Under the pieces are notes generated by a model. That model had not been told where the DNA came from, made no database searches, and worked only from the letters and a program-made list of their open reading frames with translations. Both the position numbers and the translations under genes were made by a program. A stretch of DNA of 33,543 nucleotides from Pigoraptor vietnamica (taxonomy: Eukaryota > Opisthokonta > Filasterea), in the NCBI GenBank assembly GCA_943704525.1, contig CALSCQ010002200.1, positions 1 through 33,543 of the forward strand. The letters run 5' to 3'. Below are positions 1,422 to 33,324 of this stretch, one piece after another (within the stretch, counting starts at the first letter, position 1; every line of letters starts with the position of its first letter).

Positions 1422-4400
1422 ATGATGGACGAGGAGATGGTCGACGGGGAGGAGGACATTATCACGCAGGAGGACTGCTGGACGATCATTTCGTCGTATT
1501 TTGAGGAGAAGGGCCTCGTGAACCAGCAGCTCGAGTCGTTCAACGAATTTGTCGGCACAACGCTGCAGGAGATCATGGACGAGACGCCCGAGCTCGAGCT
1601 GAGCGCAGAGTCGCAGCACCACCGCGCGAACGAGCAGGCGCCGGTGAGTGGCGTGTGCGCGTGTGCGTCGCTTTGCAATGAATCCGATTATATGCTTCTG
1701 ATGCACAAGCTGTGTTTGGCACCGTTTTGCTGTGGCTGTGTCGTGCCGTTCTCTTTTCAATTGGTCATGCGATTGTTGACACGTTCGCATGTGCACATGC
1801 ACAGAACCGTTATCGCGTCAAGTTCCGGGACGTGTACATCGCCCCGCCCAACGCCACCGATGTGCATGGCACCAAGGGGCTCCTGATGCCCAACGAGGCT
1901 CGCCTCCGCAACATGACGTGAGTTGTGTGCGCGGCCCTCGCCCCCCTTGTGTCTGCGAGTGGTTAACGCGAGGGGATGAGCTCACGCTGGTGTTGGGCTG
2001 GGCAGGTATGCCGCGACCATGTTCGTGGACGTGCGCGTCACGACGATCCATCCCTCGGAAGAGGACGTGCCCCTGGCGGAGGGCGAGAAGGATCCGAATG
2101 CGGAGGAGACGCTGTACAGTTCGATGGTGCTCGGGCGCATTCCAATCATGCTGCGGTCGCAGTACTGCAACCTCAGGCGGGACGCGTCCGACAACACGCT
2201 GACGGACTTTAAGGAGTGCCCGTACGACCAGGGCGGGTACTTTGTGATCAACGGCTCGGAGAAGGTGCTCATTGCGCAGGAGAAGATGTGCAACAACCAG
2301 GTCTACGTGTTCCAGAAGAAGCAGCCGTCCAAGTACGCGTTTGTCTCGGAGATCAGGTGCGTGCAAGGGCCATGAGTGCGAAAGGGCGAAGGTGTGGTGC
2401 TGCCGCGCAGTGCGCTCAATGTGCCCTGTGTGTGCAGGTCCACGCTGGAGAAGGGCACGCGGCCTGCGAGCACGCTCTACGTGAAGATGCTGAACCACCG
2501 CGCCAAGGGGGCGTCGGGTCGCGTGATTGAGGTGACGCTGCCGTACATTCGCATGGACGTCCCGATTGTCGTCGTTTTTCGCGCGCTTGGGTTTGTGGCG
2601 GATCGCGACATTCTCGAGCACATTATCTACGACTTCCGCGACAACGAGATGACCGAGCTGCTGAAGCCGTCGCTCGAGGACGCCTTCGTGATTCAAGAGG
2701 AGACGGTGGCGCTCGACTTTATCGGCAAGCGCGGCACGACAGTCGGCGTCACGCGCGAGAAGCGCATCCGCTATGCGAAGGAGATTCTGCAGAAGGAGAT
2801 GCTGCCGCACGTGGGCATTGGGGACGGGTGCGAGACGCGGAAGGCGTACTTTCTCGGGTACATGGCGCACCGCCTGCTGCTCGCGGCGCTCGGCCGTCGC
2901 GAGTTTGACGACCGCGACCACTACGGCAACAAGCGCATGGACCTCGCGGGCCCGCTGATGGCCGGGCTGTTCCGCGTGCTGTTCAAGAAGCTGACGAAGG
3001 ACCTCAAGCAGCAGCTGCAGAAGGCCGTCGACAAGGGCAAGGAGTTCAACCTCCCGCGCGCGCTCACGTCGCAGACGATCACGAACGGCCTGCGGTACTC
3101 GCTGGCGACGGGCAACTGGGGCGACCAGGCTAAGGCGCACGAGACGCGCGCGGGCGTGTCCCAGGTGCTCAACCGCCTGACGTTTGCGTCGACGCTGTCG
3201 CACTTGCGGCGGCTCAACTCGCCGATCGGTCGCGAGGGCAAGCTGGCCAAGCCGCGCCAGCTGCACAACACGCAGTGGGGCATGATGTGCCCCGCAGAGA
3301 CGCCCGAGGGACAGGCGTGCGGCCTCGTCAAGAACCTCGCGCTCATGGTACACATTAGCGTCGGCACCGTCAGCGCGCCGCTGCTGGACGCCCTCGAGGA
3401 ATGGGGCACGGAAAACCTTGACGAGATCTCGGCGCCCTCGTCGATTGTGAACGCGACCAAGGTGTTCCTCAACGGGTGCTGGGTGGGAATCCACAGCGAC
3501 GGCGAGGAGCTGCTTGCGAACCTGCGGTCGATTCGCCGCGAAATGGACATTAGCGCCGAGGTGTCGATTGTGCGCGACATTCGCGAGAAGGAGCTCCGCC
3601 TGTTTACGGACGCCGGGCGCTGCTGCCGGCCGCTCTTTGTCGTCGAGAACCAGCGGCTACTTTTGCGGAAGGGGGACGTTCAGCGCCTGAAGGACTCGCA
3701 CCTCTTGCGGGAGACGGGCGAGGCGCGCTTTGGCTGGACGCAGCTTGTCCAGACGGGCGCCGTCGAGCTCGTGTCCACGGAGGAAGAGGAGACGGCCATG
3801 ATCGGTGGGTAATCGCATGCCTTGCGATGCGTGTGCTTTGTACTGTGAGGCTGCTGTGAACATTGATGGAATGCAATCACTCTACACCGGAGCTCACGTG
3901 CCCGCCCTGTTCTCACAGCCATGACGCCCGAGGACCTCGCTTCTGCGCGACGCGAGGGCGATCGCGCATACTGCACGACGTACACGCACTGCGAGATCCA
4001 CCCGGCGATGATCCTGGGCGTGTGCGCGTCCATTGTGCCGTTCCCTGACCACAACCAGTCGCCGCGCAACACGTACCAGTCTGCGATGGGCAAGCAGGCG
4101 ATGGGCGTCTACATCACCAACTACCAGTACCGCATGGACACGATGGCGCACGTGCTCTTCTATCCGCAGAAGCCCCTCGCCCCGACGCGCTCGATGGAGT
4201 ACCTGCACTTTCGCGAGCTGCCCGCGGGCATCAACGCCGTCGTCGCGATCGCGTGCTACTCTGGGTACAACCAGGAGGACTCTGTGATCCTCAACCGCTC
4301 GTCGATCGACCGCGGCTTCATGCGCTCGACCTTTTATCGCTCGTACCGCGACGAGGAGCGCCGGCGCATCGGCCAGGAGGAGGAGATTGAGAAGCCGACG

Positions 4401-5774
4401 CGCGAGCACGTGACGAACATGCGCCACGGCTCGTACGACAAGCTCGACGACGATGGTCTCATTGCGCCTGGTGTGTGTCGGCTGTGCGCAGTTTGGTACA
4501 ACATGTACTGCAAGTTCCGTTTGCATGCGTGCGCTCGTTCACTTGGGGGATATCACGTGCTCATTCATCTCTCCTGCCTTGGCTGCGTGCAGGCACCCGT
4601 GTGAGCGGAGATGACGCCATCATTGGCAAGACGACGTCGGTGCCTGCGGAGGACAACGAGCTCGAGGGCCGCGTGAAGCGCTTCCGCAAGCGCGACAGCT
4701 CGACGTTCCTGCGTCACTCTGAGAACGGGATCGTGGACCAGGTGATGCTGACGAAGAACCAGGAGGGCAACATGTTCGTCAAGGTGCGCGTGCGGGCCGT
4801 GCGCATCCCTCAGATTGGCGACAAGTTTGCGTCGCGCCACGGGCAGAAGGGCACGTGCGGGATCACGTACCGGCAGGAGGACATGCCGTTCACCGCGGAG
4901 GGCCTCACGCCCGACATTATCATCAACCCGCACGCCATTCCCTCGCGCATGACGATTGGCCACCTCATCGAGTGCCTGCAGTCGAAGGTCGCCACGATGT
5001 CGGGCAAGGTCGGCGACGCCTCGCCCTTCAACTCTGACGTCACGGTCGAGCGCATCTCGGAGCTGCTCAAGGGGTACGGGTACCACCTCCGCGGCAACGA
5101 GGTCATGTACAACGGACACACCGGCCGCAAGATCAACACGCAGATCTTCCTCGGACCCACGTACTACCAGCGCCTCAAGCACATGGTCGACGACAAGATT
5201 CACGCGCGCGCGCGCGGCCCGCTCACGATGCTCACGCGGCAGCCCGTCGAGGTTCGTGGCACATCGTTTGCGGTGTTTGTTTTTCTTTTTTGCTGTGTTC
5301 CTGTTGTTTGGTGTTGATGCGTCGGTCGCATGCGTCTGAATTGGCCCCTTGGCGCGGGTCGCAGGGTCGCTCGCGCGACGGAGGCCTTCGCTTTGGTGAG
5401 ATGGAGCGCGACTGCATGATTGCGCACGGCGCGGCGCAGTTTCTCCGCGAGCGCCTCTTTGAGCAGTCGGACGCGTACCGCGTGCACGTGTGCGACCTGT
5501 GCGGCCTCATCTGCATTGCGGACATTACGAAGAACCGGTTCTCGTGCAAGAGCTGCCAGAACACGACGCAGGTGCGCACGGATTGCGCGCGACTGGCGAA
5601 TTTCCCGTCATTGTGTTGGTGTTCAATGCTCACTCGCACGCGCTGCTGCAGGTCTCGCAAGTGTTCATTCCGTACGCGTGCAAGCTGCTCTTCCAAGAGC
5701 TCATGGCGATGAGCATCGCGCCCCGCATGATGGTCCTTCCCCCGAAGCGCCGTGAGTCTGCGGGCCACCACTGA
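1422..5774 (+). CDS. RPB2: DNA-directed RNA polymerase II second-largest subunit RPB2
   Basis: Second-largest catalytic subunit of RNA polymerase II, forming the active-site cleft with RPB1. Eight exons: 1422-1643, 1806 less one (1805)-1917, 2006-2356, 2438-3804, 3919-4470, 4593-5251, 5365-5571 and 5652-5774. The splice phases agree throughout, and the protein is 1197 residues, a usual length (human about 1174, yeast 1224). Family blocks seen are [11 protein letters not shown] near 105-113, NQEDSV with the acidic pair E804/D805, GQKGTCG at 952-958, and [14 protein letters not shown] near 1092-1105. The C-terminal zinc site is C1131, C1134, C1149 and C1152. It is RPB2 rather than RPA2 or RPC2: MMDEEM with an acidic N-terminus followed by [18 protein letters not shown] is the Pol II version. 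The short tail after [11 protein letters not shown] ends in HH. Start chosen at the first ATG of MMDEEM; frame upstream has no other ATG. Confidence 0.97.
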
Positions 5775-6089
5775 GGGATGTTAGGCGCGGCCTCTTGAGA
5801 GAGAGAGGTGCAGGCCACTTGCAGGCGCCGCGTGGACGGCCTTGTTCCGTGTGTGACCGTGCGCGCGCGCGGTGTGTCCGCTGTGTCGGCCAGGGCGGCC
5901 GCGTGGACCTTGTACAGTGCCCAACTGTCCGAAACGAATGAACGGCAGTGTGGGCAGCTTTCGTGGCATTTTGGCGCGTGTTACGTAGGGCGCGTGAGTC
6001 CCGCCAATCCCATCGCGAATTGGGTGCCAAATGAAAACAGCACACAACGCGCATCGCACGCGCAACTGCACCTACGCACGCAGCCACGA
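5775..6089. promoter_or_regulatory. Spacer between RPB2 and lysAC
   Basis: These 315 bp separate the RPB2 stop from the lysAC ATG. They contain a short GA run at 5797-5808 and GC-alternating sequence near 5859. No coding exon with an aspartokinase KFGGTS-type motif is visible here. The spacer presumably carries the RPB2 3' end and the lysAC promoter. Confidence 0.4.
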
Positions 6090-8948
6090 ATGGCCGCCGT
6101 CGCTCTCCTTGCGCGCGCAACGGACGCGTGGGAGGCGCGCCAGTGGACCGCGTTCGCGCGGGCCGTCGCGGCCACGTGGGATGGCGATGATCCCCCGCAG
6201 CGAATCGCAGTGTTTGTGCATGCCCCGCCCGCACTTCTCGCAGCGGCGGCCGCCGTGGTCGAGGCCGCCGTCGGCGCGGACGACGTCGCCGTTGAGCGCG
6301 CGCTCGCAGCGCTGTCTGATTCCGTGCGCGTGGCGGCGTGCAGGCTGGGCCATGCCAGCGCGGGCGCGGTGAGCGACACCCTTGCGCGGATGCACCGGGT
6401 GGGCCGCGGGGCGCACATGGTCTGCGCTTCCATTGGGACGGTGGCTGCCATTGTCCGCGCAGAGCTCGCAGCGGCCGTCGCGCAGTCGCTCGCTGTGCTT
6501 GTGGCCGCGCGCCTCGTCACCGATGGCATCACAGCGGCAGCACACCCCGCGCCCCCCGAGCTCTCGCTGCGTCCCCGCGCCGCCAACGGTCGCATCGACG
6601 CGGATGTCCGCCTCTCTGTGTCGCAGTCGTTTTCAAAGTCTGCGGGCGCCCTTGCGAGCCCTTCGGCCGGCGGGCGCGCTGCCGTTGTGTACGCTGTGGT
6701 ACCCGACGGCGCAGGCGAAGGCAGCGGCCCTCCGCGCATGCCCGCCGGCGAGGAGGTCGCGGCGTATTTTGCCGCGTGCGTGGACGCGCGACGGCTTGAA
6801 ATATGGGGCGACTGCGCTGGCCTGTTCACGGCGCGCGAGCCGTCGGCCTTTCCGCGCACGAGCCGCCTGCTCCGGCGCCTCGACCACCGCGAGGCCATGG
6901 AGGTTGCGGCGGCGGGGACAGACGTCGTGCACCCCGCGTGCGTCGACACGGCGCTGAGTGCGCACATCCCCATTCGCATTGCGGGCATTGGCGCGGCGTC
7001 GCGCGACAACGGCACGCTGATTGTGGACAGGGGCGCGGCGGGGGCTGTCGGCGGCGCGGCGGGGCCGAGAGCCGTGCGGGTGCAGCGGGGCATCACGCTC
7101 GTGTCGATGGAGACGCTGGACATGTGGCGCACCGCGGGCTTCCTCAGCCGCCTCTTTGCCTGCTTTGAGCGCGCGCGCGTCAGCATCGACCTCATCTCGA
7201 CGTCAGAGACGAACGTGACGGCGAGCGTGGACTCGGCCCACGTGGACCCTCGCCGATTTGCCGACCTGCTGCGCGACCTCAGCCATCACTGCGGCGTCTC
7301 GGTCATCGAGCCGTGCGCGGTCGTCGCCGTTATCGGACTGGGCGTGGGCGCGTGCGCCGCCGCACTTGACGTGGCGGCGCAGGTGGGCGCGCCCGTCTAT
7401 CTCGTGAGCAAGAGCGCGAGCGACGTGAGCCTGTCGCTTGTCGTCGACGAGGCACGCGCCACTCAGCTCGAGGCGGCGCTGCACGAGGCCCTCTTCGGGG
7501 ACATTCCGGGCGCAGTGGATGCGTTCGGTCCCACGCACGCCGAACTCGAGGACGCGGTGGGGGGCGGGCGCACGGGCGCGCGTTCGGCCGCTGTGTTTGC
7601 AGCCCGGTGGTGGCAAGCCGGTGATGTTGTGCGGATGGCGCCCCCTGCCGCGCCCCTCTACGTGTACCACGTCCCGACGCTGATTGCTTCGGCGGACCGC
7701 CTGACGTCGCGGCTGCGCAGCGTTTCGCGCTTCTTCTTTGCGATCAAGGCGAATCCCAACCGCGAACTCATGCGCATACTCAAGGACAGGTGGGGCTGCG
7801 TGCAGTTCCTGTGCGAGCGGCGGGTGTTTGCCATGCGCATAGTCGCGCTTTGCTTCAAACGGCGCGTCTCCTGTTGAAAAATTGCCTCTGTTGCCTTGGC
7901 GCGCTCGCTGACACTTGCTACCGGACGCAGGGGCTTTGGCTTTGAGTGCGTGTCGCCCGGCGAACTGCAGATCGCGCTCTCGGTGCTTGGGCCGCCGTCG
8001 CCCATATCGTCGTCGCGCATTCTGTACACGCCCAACTTCGCTAGCCGCGCCGACTACGACGAGGCGTTCGAGCTGGGCTGTCACGTGACCGTGGACGGCC
8101 TCTTTCCCCTCGAGCGCTGGCCCGCGTGCTTTGCGAACCGCGCGATCATCTTGCGCGTCGACACGGGCGGGGGCCGCGGCCACCACGCCAAGGTCGTCAC
8201 GGCGGGCGGCGTGTCCAAATTCGGCATCCCCGTCGCGCAGATGGCACGCTGCGCAGAGCTGTGCCGCGCGGCGCGTGCGGTCGTGGTGGGCCTGCACGCG
8301 CACGTCGGCTCCGGCATCACGACGGAGCCAGGCACGTGGGGCGAGTCGCTGTCGGTCCTCCGCGCCATCGCCCGCGAGCACTTTGGCGGGGCTGTGCGCA
8401 TCTTCAATGTGGGCGGCGGTCTCGGCGTCCCCGACCGTCCGTCGGCCGAGCGCCTGGATCTCGACGCGGTCGAAGCCGGCCTGCAGGGCGCGCGGGGCGC
8501 GGGGGCGGAGGCGGAGGGGTGGGAGGTGTGGATGGAGCCGGGGCGGTACCTTGTGGCCGAGTGCGGCGTGCTCCTCTCCCGCGTGACGCAGACGAAGGAC
8601 AAGGGGGACGGCGGGCGGCGCTTTGTCGGCGTCACCGCTGGGATGCACGCGCTCGTCCGGCCTGCGCTGTACGACGCCCACCACGAGGTCGTGAATGCGT
8701 CGCGCGTGGACGCGAACGGCGAATACCCGCCGCAGCCGATGGCCGTGTACGATGTCGTGGGCCCCATATGCGAGAGCGGGGATGTCCTCGCGCACAAGCG
8801 GCTGCTGCCGGCGGCGACCACGGAGGGCGACGTCCTTGTGATCGAGTGCGTGGGCGCCTATGGCCGGTCCATGGCGTCCACGTACAACGCAAGACCCCTC
8901 CCCGACGAGGTGCTCGTGGGCCTGTCGCCCGTCAAGCCGTCGCGTTAG
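6090..8948 (+). CDS. lysAC: Aspartokinase-like/diaminopimelate decarboxylase fusion (LysAC type)
   Basis: The C-terminal half should be the PLP enzyme that decarboxylates meso-diaminopimelate to lysine, the last step of the DAP pathway. Two exons, 6090-7789 and 7931-8948, give 905 residues, close to the bacterial Xanthomonas/Xylella fusion. Residues 1-330 resemble an aspartokinase domain (IWGDCAGLFTA near 238-248; REAMEVAAAGTDVVHP). Residues 335-405 and 409-470 are two ACT domains with the strongly conserved stretch SIDLISTSETNVT. The decarboxylase follows: PLP Lys553 in FFFAIKANPN, GFGFECVSPGE after the intron, HVGSG at 691-695, GGG at 728-730, EPGRY at 769-773 and CESGD at 847-851. Odd: the kinase ATP-site motif KFGGTS is absent, and the GGSDTSA block is replaced around 219-224 (A-G-E-E-V-A). 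Aspartokinase activity is therefore doubtful, while the decarboxylase looks intact. The first in-frame ATG is at 6090. Confidence 0.92.
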
Positions 8949-12451: not shown

Positions 12452-15400
12452 ATGGACGCCGCACACGCAGACGCCCCACGCGCAGAGGCCCATGCGGAGG
12501 GCGCCACCACTCCCACGGCCCCGCGTGGCGGCTCCCCTCTTGCTACATTGAACGCGGGCGGGAACAGCGGCGCACATGGCGGCACACAAGCGCAGGGCGG
12601 GCGCGCACAGCAGCTCTTCGCCAAATGGGACAACGCAAACAGGAGCTCGCTCGTGGCGCCGGGCATCTGCATCATCCGCATTTCGTCGCTGACGCTTGTG
12701 AGCGCACCGCCGGACTGCGATGGCGTGTACATTGCGGCGTCCATGCGCGGCGGGCTGCGGCGATTTGTGCGGTCTCACGAAATTGCGCTCCCGGCCGCGC
12801 CAAAGGCCACGGCGGCCCCTGCGAATGCCGCGGGTGCGCAGACACCGCAGGGAAGCGTCCGTCTCGACGTGGATATCACGTTCACGGTTCAGTATCCGCA
12901 CATTCTGAAGACGCCCGGGAGCATCATCTCGCTCACGCTGCGCCGGCGAAAGCACTACAAAGGGCAGCGCATTCTCGGCTACAAGGTGCTTGCCATGGCA
13001 AACATTTCGATGGCCGAGGTCGTCGAGTGCCCCGTGGAGCGTGCAGAGATCGCCTTCCACCCGCCCAAGGTCACCGGTCGCATTGCGGGCGCGCGCTCGC
13101 AGGCGCCGAACGAGGCCGAACCCCCCGTCGCCTTTGCGCGAGTGGACGTCGTGACGCAGCTGAAGGAGGTGCAGCGGCGAAGGGGTCGCAGGAGAGGACG
13201 AGACGCCGCCGGCAGTGCCTCGGCCACATCGACAGACGCCGCCGGGCAGCAGACGGGCGCGCGCGCTGCGCAGAACGAGGGGGAGGAGGGCGCCGCGGCG
13301 GCCGCGTCGGCGTCACACGTGCCAATGTCGACGAGTCCCGCCGCTGCTGCAGCGCTCGGCGGACTGGCGAGTGACACGGGGTCGCTTTCGGACACGAGTG
13401 GCGGTACCGAGACGGAGGACGACACGCCGGCGGCCGCGCGCGTGGGCTCTGCGGGCGCGTCGCAGGGGGCGCGCTCGAGCACTGGCCACGACACGGAAGA
13501 GGGGCTGTCGGGGGACGAATTGGGGAAGGGCAAAGCGGGTGCTGCGTCGCGGGGAAAGCTGCTCGAGATGGGGCGGCTGCAGCGGACGGCGCTGAGCCGC
13601 AAGCTGAGCTCATTTATCCGGCGCTTCAAGGCCGACGACGACAGCGACGACGACGGTGCGGTGTCTGGACACGAGCACGCGCACGGCAGCAAGAAGGAGT
13701 CGTTCGACGTGCTCGCACGCAACATGTTCAAGCCGGTCGTGACGTTTGGCGGCGCGAGTACTCGCCTCTTTCGCGAGACGTTCAAGCTCGGCAGCAAGCC
13801 CGGCGACGCGACGCCCGATGCGGACGCCGCGTACGAGAGCACGGCTGAGGTGGACGACGCGGCATTTGCGCGGGCGGAGGAGGAAGACATGCTCTCCGCG
13901 CAGGGCACCGTCCCCGAAGACGAGGACTACGACGTCGACATGGACGAGGGGTCGGTCGGGGACACGGAGGACGACAACTCGCTCGAGCGCGAGTCGTATG
14001 TGGGGGACGGCGACGACGACAGCGCGCGTGGGGGCATCGTGAGCCCGCGCCCACTCCTGCGGCCATTCTACGAGTCGCGGCAGCTCAGCGACATTAGCCT
14101 AGTGCATGATTCCGCCCAGCACCTCGCACTCGCGGCGTCTGGCGGTGCTTTGGACGAGCGCGCGTCGCCTGCGGCCGTGTCGCCCCGCAAGCAATCGGCG
14201 GCCGCCAGTCCGTCGGAGGGATCGCTGCACAGCGGCCTCGTGCACGCGAACATTGCGTCGCGCGTGTCGGATGTCCTGCAGCACCACCAGCTGCACGCGC
14301 CCGGCGCGCCCGCGTGCGTCGTTGTCGTCGGCACGGGCGAGACCGGAGGGCTTCGCCTCGTGCGCGAGCTGGAGACGTCCCGTCACTTACTGTGTCCCGC
14401 GTGCGCGCACCACGGCGGCGCCACCCAACCGCAGGGCGACAGGCAGGGCCCGGCCGTGCCACTGCACCGCTGCACTGTCGGAGTGCAGACATCCGCCGAT
14501 TGTGCGGTGGTTTTGTCGGCCATTGTGTCCTTCTTTTCGTCAGGGTGCGTAAAAAGTTGGCGGGTGTGCTGTCTCTCGCGCGCTCATATGCATGTGTGCG
14601 TGTGCGTGTGTGTCACGGAGGTGGTCCTCGTTTCTGTCCAATTCTGATTGGATATGGGTCGGCCAAACAGCGAGAGCGCGTGCCCGCCGCGTCCCGTGAA
14701 GATCGCCATTGCCGGGGGCGACGACCTCGTGAACGACGTGCTGCGGGCCTTTGTCGACCAGATGGCCAAGCGGCCCACGGACTGGCTGGCCGCGTCGCCC
14801 TTCTTCGTCATCCCAGTCGGTGCGTACGCAGCGCAGGCGCATGCTGCACACAAGCGCATTGGTGCACGCACGCACGAGTGGTTTTTTTTATGTCCCCTTA
14901 TCGTCTGCTAACCGCGCGTATGTCGCGCAGGCAAGCGCCAGAAGCAGATCGCGTCCCACATCGCCGACGGCGACTCTACGTACCGCGCCATGTTCTTTGA
15001 CCAGGCCTGGCGTGACGCCTTCTGTGACGGGGATGCAAGTGAGTGTCTGTTCGTCCATTCGTTGCATCTGAGTGCGTTTGTATGCGGATTGACAAAGTTC
15101 TCTGTTCAGACGCCTCTGCGTCGTCCGCGGATGCACGAGGACGCGTGACACGGTACATGGGCGAAGCGGCCGGCAGCGTGGTGCTCGAAATCGGCGAGGT
15201 CCTTCTCACGCACGCTGTCGTAGCCAAGGGATCTGTCGAGGCGCACGGCTCTGACCCACTGCAGAAGTCCATCCCCTTCTTGCGGGTGCGTACACTCGGC
15301 CATGCGATTGAGAACCGTTGCCCGCGAACACACACGCGCGCGCACACACAGAGAGCGTTAATCGGTTCTCTTACCTCCCCCGCCCGCAGGAGGTTCGCAT

Positions 15401-25632: not shown

Positions 25633-28600
25633 ATGGCGCGGAGGAGTCCCGCGGCGCTGGCGAGGGGTGCTCACACGGGCGTTGTGGTCGCCGTCCTCTT
25701 GCTTGTTGCGGTTGTCGAGGGTGTCGGTGAGTCGCACGCGTGCCTGTCGACGTGCGTGCGCACACGTGCACGTGCTGACGTGCTTTACTTCGAACTCGCG
25801 TTAACGCACTCTTTCTCTCCACCACAAAGACGCTCTCGAGGTCGTGTGCGGTGGCGGCGACGTGCGGCGGCTGTCGGTCGGGTGCACTCGCGTCAGTGGC
25901 ACGCTTGTCGTCGCAAACCTCACGTCCTCCTCGCTTCCATCGCCTATCACGTCCGTCGTCGCTATCGACGGCGATCTCCGCGTCGAGTTTAATGACGGCC
26001 TCCAATCGCTCGATGGATTCGAGCGCGTCGCGAGCGTCGGGGGTTCGGTCGTTGTGCGCGGCAACGGGGCCCTAACTTCCCTTGCCGGCCTCGCCTCCAT
26101 CGCCAGCGTCGGCGGCGCAGTTACGATCACGGACAACCCTTCGGTCGTGTCGCTGGATGGCCTTCTCGGGCGCGTTGCGGGCGTGCTGACCGGTCCGGTC
26201 ACCATAGCGAACAACACGGCGCTTGCGTCGGCGGTGTCGGTGATCGGAAACGCCTCGTCCATAACTCACAACATCACGGTCGCCCACAACCCCTCGCTCG
26301 CCGCGCTGTCGGGATTTCGGAGGGTCGTGTACGTTGGCGGCGGCGTCCGCTTGCTCAACATGCCATCCCTCGCGGCGGTGGATGGCTTTGGCGCCCTTGC
26401 TGTCGTTGACGGGGACGTCGAGTTCGCGAACCTCCCCTCGCTTTCCGCCCTCCCTCCGTTCCCGTCGCTTCAGGTGCTCAGCTTCAACGGCTCGCTGCTG
26501 ATATCGGAGACGGGCGTCGTGGAATTGAACGCTTTCATGGACGTCGTCGTCGAGCTGGGCGACGTGGACGTGAATTCAAACCCGTTGCTCGTTCGCGTCG
26601 ACGGCCTGAGGTTTCTTCGAACGCTCGGCAACACCGTGCGCATCGCGAACAACCCCGCCCTCCGCACTATTGCGGGCGTCATGAATGGCTATCGCGATGA
26701 CTTTGGCTCCGCGATTCCACGACGCCTCGCCACCGGGCAGGGCGTGGCGATCATCGCATGCAGCAACCTCGCCACCATCGACGCGTTTGCGGGGCTGTCG
26801 TCCGCAACCGTCGTCATCCTGACGGCGCTCGAGTCGCTGTCGCGCGTGAGTCCGTTCACGTCCCTCAAGCGGCTGAGCTTTGGGCTGCTCCTGTCGATTC
26901 TTGGGCGGGACGCGGCGAGCGAGTTGGACCTCGGCGGGGTCTTCCCAGCCCTGGAGTTTCTCGATCAGCTGTTGGTGGCGGACGTGTTCGCGCGAGTGCT
27001 TTCGTTCCCGAAGCTGTCGGTTGTCACCGGGGCCATCGGCATACTGGGCTCGCCCACCCTCGTGGAGATTGCGCCGTTTCCCGCGCTGTGGACGTTGCGT
27101 CAGATATACGTCTTCAACAACACGGCACTCCGCCGCATCGGAGGCTTCCCGAACCTCACGGAAATCGAGAGCTCGATCAACGTGTGGGGCAACGGGAACG
27201 CGCAGTCGCCGCTCGAGGACGTCTCGCTCTCGTTCCCGCGCCTCAAGAAGTGCAGCGGGATTTCCATTCTCGACAACTGGGGACCCTACGAGCTGTCCGG
27301 TTTTCCCGCCCTCACTCAGAACACGGGCGACCTGCGCATCACCAACAACGTGCTCCTGGAGCGCGTGGGCGGCTTTGCGTCGCTCGTCGAGTGTGGCGCC
27401 GTGTCGATCACCGACAGCCCGTCCCTTGTCGCCATCGAGGGATTCCCGGTCGTGCGGAGGGCCGCGTCGTTCTACTTTGGGCGGCTCGTGAACCTCACCG
27501 CCATCGCGGCGTTTCCCGTGGTCAAGACTGTGGAAGGGTCCCTCTTCCTCGATGGTCTCCCGCAGCTTGTTAACGTCAGCGCGTTCAACGTGGGTGTGCC
27601 GTGTCAGGCAGAGCTCGGTTCGCCTTCTTCGCACGTCTGTGTGCATGTTGTATTCCCGCCCCCACCTCCCCTGGCAGTGCGCCAATGTCTTCGCCGCCCT
27701 TCCTTGCCCTCCCCCTGATTTTCACACTCTACGTCCTCTCTTGTTCACCGCAACCCTCCGGTACGTGCCGCAGGGACCTGACGTGGGCGGCAACCTGCAA
27801 GTCTTCGGTTGCCACATGCTCGAGTCTCTGCCGTGGCTTGACGGGACGATCGTGCGCACCTCGTTCCTCTTTTCGACCAACCTCGCCCTCGCGGAGCTGC
27901 CGGCCATCAATGTTGGCGGCGAGTCGCTCGTGAACCGCCTGCTAATAAGCGACATGCCGCATCTCGCCAGCCTCACGCCGCTGCGGTCGGCCAACCTGTA
28001 TTCGCTGGCGGACGTCCAAATCTTCAACATGAACAATCTCACGTCACTCGCTGGGCTCGAGACCGTCCGCCACATCGCGAACAAGCTCTCTATGGCGAAC
28101 TGCCGAATCCTAACGGACCTCTCGGCGCTGGACGGCCTCGAGCGAGTGTACGGCGACCTCGCGATCGCGACGACCGGCCTGTGGCACCTCAACGCCTTCC
28201 GCGGCCTTGTCGAGGTCACCGGGAACATCGACATTTCGGACAACTCGGACCTCGTCTCGCTGCAAGGCTTTGACGCGCTGCGGAACGTGTCCGGATCCGT
28301 GTCCATACGCTACAACCCGTCGCTGAACGTCATCGACGGCATCGCGGCCCTCGCGTCCATCGGAGGGTCCCTCGAAATCAACGACAACGCCGCGCTGAAT
28401 GCCGTCGTCGGGTTCGCGTCGCTGCACAGCGTGGGCTCGTTCTCACTCGTGCGATGTCCGTGCACGGTCGCGTCCGGCTTTGCGAGCCTCGAGTACGTCA
28501 ACAGGACGCTGGAAGTGACGCGCACCATGCTGCGGTCGCTGTCGTCCTTCGCGTCGGTGGTGAGCGCCGGCGAGGTCATCGTGCGAGAGAACGGGCGCCT

Positions 28601-31600
28601 GGTCGCGGCCGAGCTGACGGGGCTCGTGACGGTCGAGGGTGCGCTCACGCTGGACCACAACCCGTCGATTGTGGAAGTCGGCGACGGACACTTTGCGCGC
28701 CTGGAAACGGCCGGCTCGCTCACGATGTCTTCTCTGCTGTCTCTCCGTCGTCTCTCTGGGTTTGGGGCGCTGCGGCATGTGCGCGGGGACGTCGTCGCGC
28801 TGAACAACCCGGCGCTGTCCAAGATCACCGGCTTCAACAGCCTCGCGCGCGTGGACGGCGCGGTCGTCATACGGGGCAACATGATTCTCGACGGCCTCAC
28901 GATGACTATCTTGTCGCTGGGGTCGCTCGAAGTGGCTGACAACAGCAACGCAGAGTATCTGAACCTCATCGTCGTGGACAACATCGCCGGCCACGTGATC
29001 GTGGAGGGTAACCTCGCCCTCAAGCGCGTGCGGCTGTCGGCGCGCACGCTGGGCGGCACACTCACCTTCCGTTACAACGACGTCTACCTCTCGAACGATC
29101 CCGACAACGGCGACCTTTCGTGGCAGTTCGGCGAAGTCCACGGCGTCACAGTCACCGGCAACAGGCAGCTCACGTCACTCACGCTTTCTGGCATCGGCAC
29201 GCTCTCCGGGTCGCTCGAGATTACCGACAACAAGTCGCTCGAGGCGCTGTTCCTGCCCGCCATCCTCAAGGACATCACGAACGTCGTGATCGACGCAAAC
29301 GCAGCGCTATGGTCGATCTCGTACGAAATCCCGTACATCACGACCCTCTCGCGCCTGGGCACGAGCCCCGACAACCTCGCGTCGAAATTTCTCGGCGCGC
29401 CCTTCGACGTCTCCAACGTATTTCGCGTTGTGGGCGACACGCTCCGCCGGGCGGACATTGCGCAGTGGCCCCGGCAGGTCGGGAGTGACTGGCACTTGAA
29501 TGCGCCGAATCTGGTGGAGCCCGTGGTGGCACCGAACCTCACGTCTATTGGCGGAGATCTTTTCGTCACAGCGCCCCTCGACACCGTCGCGTTTCCGGCG
29601 CTGGTCACGGTCAGCGGCTCGTTCTACATGTTCAACTGCAACGTGGCGGGTTCCTCGGGCTGGTCCGACTTCCCCTTGCTGCGCTCCGTGGGATCGTCGC
29701 TCGCCATCATCGACTCGAACGTCGAGTCAATTGCCGGGTTCAATTCCCTGGTGACCGTCGGCGGCTTTCTCGCGATCACGGACAACGTTCGCCTCGTGGG
29801 CGTCGATGGCATGCAGCAACTGCGCACGATCGGCACGGCCGGCCAGTCCTTCGACCTTTACCACAGCACGTACGCGGCGGCGATCGCGGATAATCCCGTG
29901 CTGCAGCGTGTCGGTGGGTTCCGGTCCGTCACCGCCGTCTACGGCCCCATTCTCGTCAAGGGCAACGAGATGCTCTGCGCGCGCGAGGTCGACCTCACGC
30001 TCGTCGCTCCGCCGGGAAGCCGCGTGGTCGACAACGCCGACAGTAGCACGTGCGGTGCGTCTCTTGAGCCTGTGCCCTCCTTTGTGTGTGTGTCCGACAG
30101 CAACACGTGTGGTGCGTCTCTTAAACCAATGCTCTCTTTTGTGTTTGTGTGCGTGCGAGTTTTTGTCCGACAGCAACGCATGTGGTGCGTGCACTTTTGT
30201 CCTTCTTCCTACGGCCTCAATCCCTCGCCCGTGCATGGCTTTCTCACTCGTCTGTTGTGCCCTTTCCGTGGTCGCTGGTCGCTGCCCATTCGAAAACGAT
30301 TGCCGTTCTTGACCGATCCACCCGTGCCTCCCTCTCGCGATCACAGTGTGCCAGGGCCGCACCGTCCACTCCGACGTGGACGTCTGGGAGTTGCGCAACT
30401 GCGCGTCGGTCGTCGGCTCGCTCTCCGTTGGCCCTAACGTCACCACCGTTGCCCCCATGGCCGCCCTCAAGACCGTCTCCGGGGACCTCGTTTTCGATGG
30501 CGTGGGCGTTGTTGACGGGGGTGCGCCGCGGTTCCCCGCGCTAGCGAACGTCGGCGGCGACGTTGTGGTCACCTCTACGCACATTGCGTCGCTGTCGTTG
30601 CCACAGCTGTCCGTCGTCAACGGCTCGGTGGTCGTGCAGGGAAACGTGTCCTCTGTGAGCGCCCCATTGCTGGCGTCGGTCTTAGGCGACGTCGTACTCG
30701 GCGGTGCACTGACGACGCTTGGGTTCGACGCGCTCTCCATCATCAAAGGGTCGCTATATCTGTCGGGCCTCACGGCGCTGTCGAGCGCAGGAAACGACCA
30801 ATTTCCGTCGCTGACGTGGGTGGGGGGGCACGTGGTCGTCGCGAACTGCGCCGCGCTGGTCTCGTTTGGGGCCATGCGGGCCCTTGTGCACGTCGGCGGA
30901 AACTTTACAGTCGCGAACAACACGGCCCTCACGACTGTCCAAGTCGCCGAGAACGTGCAGACGCTCGTCGGCACGCTGACGCTTTCGAACTGTGGCTCGC
31001 TCGCGCGCATTGACGCCCTCGTCCCCAGTGCCTTGTCAATCGGTGGGCTGACGATGGAGGACCTCCCGCAGCTCTCGGCGATCCATCGCCTGTTGGTCTC
31101 GCTGCAGCACGTCGCGGGGTCGGTGCTGCTCGACCGGGTGGGGCAGCGCACGCCCATACCCGTCGCTCTTCCCAACCTCGCCGAGGTGACCGGCGACGTG
31201 ACGCTCGTCCAGTCGGCCATCTCTTCGCTAGCGGGCTTTGCGTCTCTGGCACGCATTGGCGGCTCGTTCTCAGTCGTCGCGTGCAACCTTGTCAACGTGA
31301 CAGGACCGCGCGTCGGCGTCGGTGTCGTCGACGCAGCGCCGTCGGCGGAGCTGTGGGGCGTGGGCGGCGACCTTGTCTTTTCGAACAACTCGGTGCTAGA
31401 GGGCCTCGCGTTCCCCCACTTGGGATTCGTCGGCGGCGTGATGGAGATCTCCGGCAACCCTAGTCTGACGCGAACGGCCTTCCCCTCGCTGTCGGTCGTC
31501 AACACGTCCCTGCGCATCGAGAACAACGCGCGAATGGCGACGCTCGCGGGGTGGTCGGGGCTATCGCGCATCGGTGACGCCATCGAGCCGTCGGGATGGG

Positions 31601-32880
31601 ATCCGTCCGCTTCGTCGACGTCCTCGCCGAGTCCTGGGGCAGTGACAGTGGCGCTTGTCATCTTTAACAACCCCTTGCTGACGTCGATTGACGCGCTGGG
31701 GTCTGTGGTTTATATTGGTGGTCACGTGGCCATTTCGAACAACACGGCGCTGTGCCCGAGGACAATCGACCTCGCCGCGACCGTCGTCGGCGGGTTCAGC
31801 GTGTCGATATCGAATAACTCACCGGGACCCTGCGGTGGGCAGTGTGCGCTGGGAGAGAGGGAGGGGGATGAGGGGATGTCGAGACCACTTCTATGTTGTT
31901 GCTCCGCATTTCTGTACGTGTTTTTTTTATTTGTTTGTTTTTCCCTTCGTTTCTTCCTTTCATTCGCTTTGGCCCACAAATGTCTTGCCGCGATTGGCCG
32001 CAGTTATTTAGCTAACGATCCGCTTTTGCCTCTTCTCTTCTGTCGAGCAGTGTGCCGGCAGAAGGTCGCCCGTGCGCGCCAGGCCGGGCTCTCGTACCAA
32101 GGGTGTGCGATCGTCGACGGCGACCTCATCGTCTCCCAGTGGCTGCTGGATGGCGAGGGGTACCCGGCGAACCTCACGACCATCACGGGCTCGCTCACGC
32201 TGACCGGCCTCACGGGATCTTCGAAGAATTGGCTCGCCGTCTTTGCGGCCCTGCGCGTCATCGGAGGCGACCTCAATGTCATCGAGAACGGGTTCGACGC
32301 GGGCGTGTCGAGCGTCCCTGAAGCGAACGTGACGTCGGTCCGCGTGGGTGGGGGCCTTAAGGTGGCCAACAACACGCGCCTCCTTGCGCTGGACGGCTTC
32401 CGCATCTCCGGCACGCTCCGCTTCGCCAGCCTGACCCTCAACACGGTGCTGTCCACGTTCCCTGCGCTCCAGGGCGTGACGACCATAGGCCCACCTCCCG
32501 CTACAACAGGGGGCCAGTACGCACAGCCGGCGATTGAGATTATCGGCAACCCCGCGCTGTCGTCGCTGCAGGGTTTTCGCCGCGTGTCGAACGTGACAGG
32601 GAGCGTCGACATCCGGAACAACCCGACGCTGTGTTTCGCGAAGACGGTCGGTTGGCAGATTGTTGTGTCGGACTATTTGCCCGCGAACGTCGTCGTGCAG
32701 AGCAACGCCGTGGATTGCGGTGGGTGTGCGTGTGCGCTGGGGTTGGGAGTTATTCTGCTGTGGCGACCGATTTATGGCGCAGTGGACACTGTGGAAGTGC
32801 ATCAAATGATATCTAATTGCCATTCCTGCTCAACACACACACCACACACCCGTGCACACACACTCACACACACACACACA

Positions 32881-32928
<48 letters not shown>

Positions 32929-33324
32929 TTCGTGCGCAATCCGCGAGCAGCTTCGTGCAGCTCGGCATGTGCGGCCATTGCGGGCTGCTGGGGGGCGCTC
33001 TCCACCGACTGCGTGGCGTGCCCCATCGCAAAGTACGGCGCCCTTTGCATGCCCTCTGTGGGGGACGAGTCGGAGGGGTCAACGAACAACTCGGCCGCGA
33101 TTGCCGGTGGCGTCGTGGGGGGTGTCGTCCTTCTCGCCATTCTCTGCGGGTGCATTGTTCTCTTCATCAGACGTGAGCAAGTGCGACTGGCCGTCGAGAA
33201 GGAGTACGTGGCGCGCGTCGATCGCCTCGTTGCGATTTTTGGCGTGGACAGGCGGGACGGCAGTGCGCTTTCTGCCGCGTCGAAGCAGATGGGCGACCTT
33301 TTGACGATGGTGGGTTGCTATTGA
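25633..33324 (+). CDS. Large receptor L-domain (EGFR ectodomain-like) membrane protein
   Basis: Probable cell-surface receptor, 2221 residues, exons 25633-25726, 25830-27589, 27774-30054, 30347-31834, 32051-32719 and 32951-33324. Residues 1-31 form a signal peptide (basic start, then VVVAVLLLVAVVEGV). Residues 32-2097 are dozens of short beta-helix-like repeats of the type 'L..L.GF..L..VGG.L.I..N', as in Receptor L domains, with many N-x-S/T sites. Three arrays each open with a Cys pair (VCGGGDVRRLSVGC at 37; VCQGR at 1379; VCRQK at 1875) and close with LC...C (C1378, C1874, C2097). Residues 2100-2130 are a Cys cluster with GCWGALSTDCVAC, resembling the EGFR domain IV block GCWG.x.x.DCV.C. 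One transmembrane helix spans about 2146-2170, followed by RR and a 51-residue basic tail. No kinase is in the window. A GTGGGT donor at 33310 could extend it beyond the edge. Confidence 0.85.
30038..30190 (+). repeat. Threefold repeat of an exon end/splice donor
   Basis: The last exon-3 bases plus the donor (CGACAG...ACGTGCG then GTGCGTCTCTT) begin at 30038. Near-copies start at 30095 and 30168, the latter diverging after GTGCGT. The second and third copies lie inside the intron 30055-30346 and keep both the Cys-codon-like end and the donor. Confidence 0.75.
32855..32925 (+). repeat. (CA)n microsatellite in receptor intron 5
   Basis: A mostly pure CA repeat with a few interruptions (for example CACTCA and CATACA) inside the intron 32720-32950. 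Read in the coding frame it gives Thr-His repeats without a stop. Confidence 0.9.

Follow-up and report, generated by a model that had tools for sequence, protein, structure and literature searches.

A LysAC-type gene with a degenerate aspartokinase half in the filasterean Pigoraptor vietnamica

Gene organization and family assignment

The stretch of DNA analysed here, called the window, is the whole 33,543-nucleotide contig CALSCQ010002200.1 of Pigoraptor vietnamica (assembly GCA_943704525.1), which is contig C909 among the 1395 contigs of this 32.5-Mb genome and has a G+C content of 0.63. Its plus strand carries a gene (6090-8948) encoding a protein of 905 aa with the order aspartokinase, ACT, ACT and diaminopimelate (DAP) decarboxylase in a single chain, i.e., the organization of the bacterial bifunctional LysAC; the kinase half of the window protein, however, has lost most of the residues expected at its catalytic site. 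The gene consists of exon 1 (6090-7789), an intron of 141 bp (7790-7930) with GT-AG ends (GTGGGG...CGCAG), and exon 2 (7931-8948). The frame opens with the ATG at 6090, and the TAG at 8946-8948 closes the frame of exon 2. Across the splice the frame is continuous as RGFGFECVSPGEL, the same as in bacterial LysAC, and the junction sequence ILKDRGFGFECVSPGEL aligns with the bacterial proteins without gaps. The original prediction had placed the protein at 6090-7600; the gene is longer, and this interval covers only the kinase, the ACT domains and the linker.

The domain order, already recognized in that prediction, was confirmed by Pfam, by NCBIfam and by alignment. Pfam detected AA_kinase over residues 90-298 (46.6 bits), two stretches of ACT_9 (47.3 bits) and both decarboxylase domains (PF02784, 99 bits; PF00278, 86 bits). 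The best NCBIfam model was NF006515 (bifunctional aspartate kinase/DAP decarboxylase), with 661 bits, below its cut-off of 802, and a match that begins at residue 223, while the lysA model TIGR01048 reached 285.1 bits (E 6.9e-85), narrowly short of its cut-off of 297.9. A tblastn search against plasmid records retrieved the LysAC of Xanthomonas sacchari and Legionella adelaidensis, with 38-40% identity from residue 224 on.

To place these values in context, genome contigs were scanned with a three-row alignment of the window protein and the two plasmid LysACs, which yielded at least 535 relatives; the best 80, with 37-46% identity in their best segments, were used (Xanthomonas, Legionella, Rhodothermus and others), a sample that represents the upper end of a ranked list and not the whole LysAC family. 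Both scan patterns sit in the kinase C-lobe and the first ACT domain (ACT1), so the missing kinase motifs were not demanded of the relatives. Proteins of at least 840 aa were obtained from 76 of the 80 loci and, together with the two plasmid genes, make up a set of 78 bacterial LysACs. A column is called near-invariant here when at least 95% of these proteins share its residue. The window protein keeps 9 of 33 such columns in the kinase N-lobe (residues 1-220) and 22 of 34 in the C-lobe (221-325); the ACT region retains 21 of 29, the linker 2 of 3 and the decarboxylase, whose signatures are as originally described, 75 of 79. The mean identity to the bacterial proteins, compared with that among the bacteria themselves (190 pairs among 20 sequences), follows the same gradient: 0.18 vs. 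0.43 in the N-lobe, 0.39 vs. 0.60 in the C-lobe, 0.39 vs. 0.57 in the ACT region and 0.49 vs. 0.53 in the decarboxylase (LysA).

Branch lengths were estimated on one fixed tree that included 44 bacterial sequences from the set of 78, those left out being at least 70% identical to a retained one. For the window protein, the terminal branch measures 10.0 for the N-lobe (presumably the bound of the program), 2.36 for the C-lobe, 1.34 for ACT and 0.73 for LysA, whereas the longest bacterial ones reach 0.90, 0.68, 0.56 and 0.61, respectively, indicating an accelerated evolution of all parts relative to bacteria, although the acceleration is slight in LysA. In the unrooted tree of this top-80 sample, the protein lies on a long branch between a Xanthomonas-like group and the remainder (split support 77), and for these reasons no bacterial donor can be named. 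No relative was found in viral contigs. In a phage collection, 18 records matched the decarboxylase exon with less than 60% identity; among the eight listed, two are annotated as DAP decarboxylase and six carry no annotation.

The kinase half and its genomic setting

The degenerate N-lobe is encoded by 6090-6749. The position of the KFGGTS motif (6108-6125, residues 7-12) reads LARATD, that of SALSGVT reads HAPPALL (residues 44-50) and that of GGSDTS (6741-6758, residues 218-223) reads PAGEEV, so the three replacements noticed in the original prediction are confirmed. The motif set of lysine-sensitive aspartokinases (KFGGTS, SA..GVT, GE and GRGGSD) is lacking in this protein. The C-lobe (6750-7064) is partly kept, but the ATP-site position T221 is G and K257 is D.

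The positions of Escherichia coli aspartokinase III (AKIII) were transferred through one bacterial locus (L040) onto a 79-row alignment. Among 18 kinase-site positions, which we take to include K8, G10, G11, T12, S39 and D202, four are identical (T12, A40, D222 and V258), the equivalent of Y227 is F, the commonest residue among bacterial LysACs, and the others are changed (K8, G10, G11, S39, T45, E119, F184, R198, S201, D202, T221, R232 and K257). K8, G10, G11, S39, E119 and D202 are present in 78 of the 78 bacterial proteins. Positions 198, 232 and 257 weigh less because bacteria vary there (R in 72, R in 52 and K in 60 of 78), and the call at E119 depends on the alignment, since a glutamate (E125) occupies it in the three-row alignment and an alanine in the 79-row one. 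In AKIII, key roles are described for R198 and S201 with aspartate and for T221 and R232 with ATP, and D222, Y227, K257 and V258 are counted among the key residues of the catalytic site (PMC3195717); for aspartokinase, contacts with aspartate are described for A40, T45, E119, F184, R198 and S201 (PMC5481828). Three bacterial LysACs (L078, L081 and L106) have minor motif variants, KFGGRS, KFGGGS and GRGGGDTS, K8 and D202 being conserved in all 78.

Residues 1-182 contain no lysine at all, and it is therefore unlikely that the catalytic lysine has merely moved within the N-lobe. In addition, all six frames of the whole window were scanned for F[GA]G[TS], GGSD, GGRDT, KFGG and SA.GE. There were three matches, one to FGGS at 26316 and two to SA.GE on the minus strand, none of them in a kinase context. 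An upstream exon carrying KFGGTS, or a frameshift hiding the motif, can thus be ruled out within the window. Judging from these residues, aspartokinase activity has almost certainly been lost, and the proposal that this half is a pseudokinase is well supported.

It might be argued that residues 1-220 are an unrelated sequence. Scored with a profile built from the 78 bacterial N-lobes, they reached 3.0 bits, a value matched by 33 of the 1752 shuffles reported out of 2000 made, and sub-stretches (1-70, 71-150 and 151-220) gave no improvement, whereas the C-lobe scored 83 bits and the ACT region 144 bits; this test could not discard that idea. End-to-end comparison with 44 bacterial N-lobes speaks against it: of 400 shuffles, none reached the real mean global score, one the best global, three the mean local and 59 the best local. 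As controls, 28 LysA and 28 C-lobe/ACT segments (60 shuffles each) gave a maximum z of 2.1 and the reversed N-lobe 0.9, compared with 4.8 for the real one. The length of 216 aa is close to the 200 to about 210 aa of the bacterial N-lobes listed. We take residues 1-220 as a heavily diverged N-lobe rather than foreign sequence. An AlphaFold2 model of the kinase-ACT half, built on 41 bacterial rows, reached a pLDDT of 82.9 and a pTM of 0.82 (weak at 163-178), and all the 50 PDB matches listed for it are aspartokinases or their regulatory parts. When no alignment was provided, the mean pLDDT dropped to 40 and was low in every part, including ACT, and hence the prediction was rejected as an independent proof of the fold.

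Upstream of the gene lies an RPB2-type RNA polymerase subunit gene on the same strand (from 2376 or earlier to 5774, stop codon 5772-5774), with Pfam Rpb2 domains in the open reading frames (ORFs) 2376-3809 and 4475-5314 and C-terminal frames that were read directly. It ends 315 bp before the ATG of the LysAC-type gene and leads us to regard the contig as part of a eukaryotic nuclear genome. The GC content by codon position is 0.65, 0.59 and 0.68 in the 5808-6089 stretch vs. 0.80, 0.62 and 0.79 in the N-lobe. Both stretches are free of stops, as are 6% and 4% of their respective shuffles. The third-position value (GC3) is also 0.79 in the linker and the start of LysA, and rises to 0.88 in ACT and 0.89 in LysA exon 2.

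Elsewhere in the window, a 731-aa ORF (12452-14647) bears the N-terminal C2 domain of PACS sorting proteins, and two consecutive long ORFs of 961 and 992 aa (27552-33324), each with a Receptor L domain close to its end, resemble a duplicated pair of surface proteins.

ACT domains, decarboxylase and the lysine routes of the genome

The two ACT domains (7065-7505, residues 326-472) are supported by the two ACT_9 stretches and by the retained columns. The stretch SIDLISTSETNVT, reported as intact in the original prediction, is present at residues 365-377, within the lysine-site stretch of ACT1 (7122-7232, residues 345-381). When the effector site was compared with that of AKIII, 10 of 12 positions matched either AKIII or the commonest bacterial residue, the equivalents of F324, S345 and E346 being identical to AKIII; we assume that the remaining effector positions of AKIII are also lysine-site residues. 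Of the two mismatches, I366 (V339 in AKIII) is the second commonest residue (24 of 78) and T348 (S321) is neither. In AKIII, the effector lysine is contacted by F324, S345 and E346 (PMC3195717). The residues retained in ACT1 would allow lysine sensing, without demonstrating it. Compared with AKIII (2j0w, 2j0x), the window protein thus shares most of the ACT1 lysine site and the C-lobe and ACT sequence, but not the catalytic residues.

A linker (7506-7649, residues 473-520) with FGPT...WW, as in bacterial LysAC, leads to the decarboxylase. Its start (7650-7789) includes K553 in AIKANPN (codon 7746-7748), which we take to be the lysine that binds pyridoxal phosphate, and the remainder (7931-8948) contains HAHVGSGI, GGGLGVP, EPGRYLVAE, RPALY, CESGD (8769-8783) and GAYG...YN. 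EPGR, RPALY and CESGD are presumably motifs of the DAP-binding site, and they are present together with the lysine, as expected for a DAP decarboxylase. In addition, the 16 best-scoring solved sequences for this half are all named DAP decarboxylase. The C-terminal half probably has DAP decarboxylase activity.

The genome was examined by profile searches in six frames, exon by exon, over the 1395-contig assembly. PF02784 matched the window gene alone, and no ordinary ornithine decarboxylase was found by this search; spermidine-synthase-type matches (PF01564) were located on contig C1195. The idea that the window gene is the only alanine-racemase-fold decarboxylase of the genome was dropped, because PF00278 has a second locus on contig C1333 (L137, 54765-54899; 33.9 bits), where exons of a divergent decarboxylase-like gene read CCFAGD in place of CESGD.

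The AA_kinase profile matched nine places. The separate intact aspartokinase that the original prediction had looked to elsewhere in the genome was found twice, in two different types identified by reading the frames: a Hom3-like enzyme on C1363 (L009; QKFGGTSVG, GRGYTDFTAA) and, on C489 (L013), an aspartokinase (QFGGTSVANAG, NGSDYSAS, WTDVDGVYSADPR, GAKILHP) followed by a homoserine-dehydrogenase-like frame. Further loci, also read from the frames, resemble N-acetylglutamate kinase (C1011), glutamate 5-kinase (C474 and C694) and isopentenyl phosphate kinase (C1315).

The exon-wise searches gave no match for DHDPS/DapA (PF00701), DapB_C (PF05173) or DapF (PF01678), models that were positive in 14, 11 and 9 of 14 control genomes, respectively, and the DapL model TIGR03542 yielded only three weak matches (best 33.6 bits, cut-off 364.7). 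One locus has a semialdehyde dehydrogenase domain and was read as aspartate-semialdehyde dehydrogenase. For the aminoadipate route, homocitrate synthase (TIGR02146) is represented by three exons on C789 summing to about 420 bits (cut-off 413.6), with no single piece over the cut-off, and aminoadipate reductase (TIGR03443) by pieces on C842 that span model positions 2-1364 with gaps and sum to about 1224 bits (cut-off 1030), none passing alone; the C-terminal domain of saccharopine dehydrogenase was found on C955 and C278. From these profiles, lysine is likely made by the aminoadipate route and is not likely made by the DAP route, and the aspartokinases would serve only the synthesis of threonine and methionine.

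Interpretation of the fused protein

Taking these results together, the best explanation, to which we give a probability of about 0.52, would be a LysAC resident in a eukaryote, with a dead kinase half and a C-terminal half that works as a meso-DAP decarboxylase in DAP salvage, ACT1 providing lysine control or holding the oligomer. Since the searches detected no DapA, DapB or DapF, none of the known routes would provide an endogenous substrate for the decarboxylase and, together with the presence of aminoadipate genes, this shifts its likely role from biosynthesis to salvage. DAP from bacterial peptidoglycan would be the obvious source, which the C-terminal half would turn into lysine, and we give about even odds to this salvage role. 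The kinase half would be a strongly diverged amino-acid-kinase domain devoid of catalysis. With no DAP route to feed, such a kinase could decay freely, in agreement with the loss observed. The kept ACT1 site may bind lysine and damp the attached decarboxylase, or at least hold the oligomer; lysine control of the decarboxylase is a tentative proposal that we place somewhat below even. The lysine site could have been kept either by lysine feedback on salvage or by a simply slower decay. The more complete scenario, in which the kinase activity of a bacterially derived LysAC disappeared once the upstream DAP pathway had been lost or had never been acquired, and the pseudokinase-ACT part was kept in an aminoadipate host to throttle the use of DAP from digested bacteria as a lysine-gated salvage enzyme, is a real possibility but more speculative.

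Several points weigh against this explanation. The ACT region has a higher rate of change than LysA and has lost 8 of its 29 near-invariant columns, six of them in the second ACT domain (ACT2), and thus it may be decaying too. The absence of DapA, DapB and DapF comes from exon-wise searches of an incomplete assembly, saccharopine dehydrogenase may also reflect lysine breakdown, and the aminoadipate searches covered homocitrate synthase, aminoadipate reductase and saccharopine dehydrogenase. The structural model and its PDB matches lean on the bacterial alignment and are not an independent proof. The study covers a single genome, and the explanation assumes both a selection that keeps the pseudokinase and a host that feeds on bacteria; control of a fused DAP decarboxylase by ACT domains was not found reported for any LysAC.

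A strong rival reading treats the kinase and ACT domains as neutral remnants that fold harmlessly on a useful decarboxylase and sense nothing. The stepwise rise in rate from LysA toward the N-lobe, the nearly vanished profile similarity of the latter, the drift in ACT2 and the GC3 of the N-lobe, lower than that of ACT and LysA exon 2 though equal to that of the linker and LysA start, agree with it. Conversely, the N-lobe has stayed open over 220 codons, with a nearly bacterial length, and both the end-to-end similarity and 10 of 12 lysine-site positions have been retained. We consider this rival a real possibility, at roughly the odds of the lysine-gated scenario.

Much less probable is that the decarboxylase acts on ornithine, lysine or a D-amino acid, for instance feeding polyamine synthesis. 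The spermidine-synthase-type matches in a genome where PF02784 finds no ordinary ornithine decarboxylase would favour it, but the protein retains EPGR, RPALY and CESGD, its closest solved chains are DAP decarboxylases and there is a second, divergent decarboxylase-like gene on C1333. A marginally poorer prospect is an artefact, i.e., a wrong start, an assembly error, an N-lobe exon located elsewhere, or translation from an inner ATG at residue 217 with an untranslated frame before it. Residues 1-220 are hardly above their composition in the profile test, and the upstream stretch, which looks untranslated, is equally open; however, no KFGGTS-like motif appears in any frame of the window, RPB2 ends close to the ATG, the codon-position GC pattern is seen from 6090 and not in 5808-6089, and the end-to-end similarity is to genuine N-lobes. 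Finally, a kinase active through unusual residues or on a different substrate is highly improbable, given the changes at K8, S39, T45, E119, R198, S201, D202, T221 and K257 (with the reservations made above for 119, 198 and 257) and the lack of lysines in residues 1-182, even though the C-lobe retains the D222 equivalent and most of its near-invariant columns.

Among known systems, the closest is the bacterial LysAC of NF006515, with which the protein shares domain order, linker, ACT1 and decarboxylase signatures, but it differs in lacking the kinase site, in belonging to a eukaryote with an intron, in falling below the family cut-off and in a genome without DapA, DapB and DapF matches. In the choanoflagellate Salpingoeca rosetta, another unicellular eukaryote with a LysAC-type gene, lysAC was a transfer candidate by one index that failed a second filter; unlike the case described here, dapF and asd are also reported there (PMC7971027). 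The aspartate kinases of oomycetes are described as nearer to bacterial bifunctional enzymes having both activities (PMC2705460). Trypanosomatids keep only the last gene of the DAP pathway, or the last two in one species, and regular trypanosomatids require external lysine or DAP, which substitutes for lysine in media (PMC3846528). The likeness resides in keeping only the end of the pathway; no kinase or ACT domain is mentioned there, and the genome of P. vietnamica has aminoadipate genes.

The original prediction knew of no description of the regulatory arrangement. No report of a kinase-dead LysAC was found among titles and abstract openings of the open-licence literature, and PMC8503589 mentions neither aspartokinase (aspartate kinase) nor LysAC or LysC in its text, but the same logic, a dead amino-acid-kinase domain used as a sensor, is known in NAGS. 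According to PMC3236213 and PMC5146650, NAGS is a bifunctional kinase fusion in some bacteria (NAGS-K), and in vertebrates and others the attached acetyltransferase is regulated through an arginine site located in a non-functional kinase domain. The two systems resemble each other in their logic and do not belong to one family: the partner is an acetyltransferase of a different pathway, and the effector site lies within the kinase domain and not in ACT. The arginine-site motif ELF(T/S)xxGxGT given there (PMC3236213) is not expected in the window protein.

For annotation, the label of bifunctional LysAC in a eukaryote does not by itself establish that the protein is an active aspartokinase or that a DAP pathway exists. 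If the explanation proposed here is true, this protein would join NAGS as an amino-acid-kinase fusion that lost the kinase while the domain was kept as a sensor for the attached enzyme, and one protist would have two sources of lysine, de novo synthesis by the aminoadipate route and salvage from bacterial walls.

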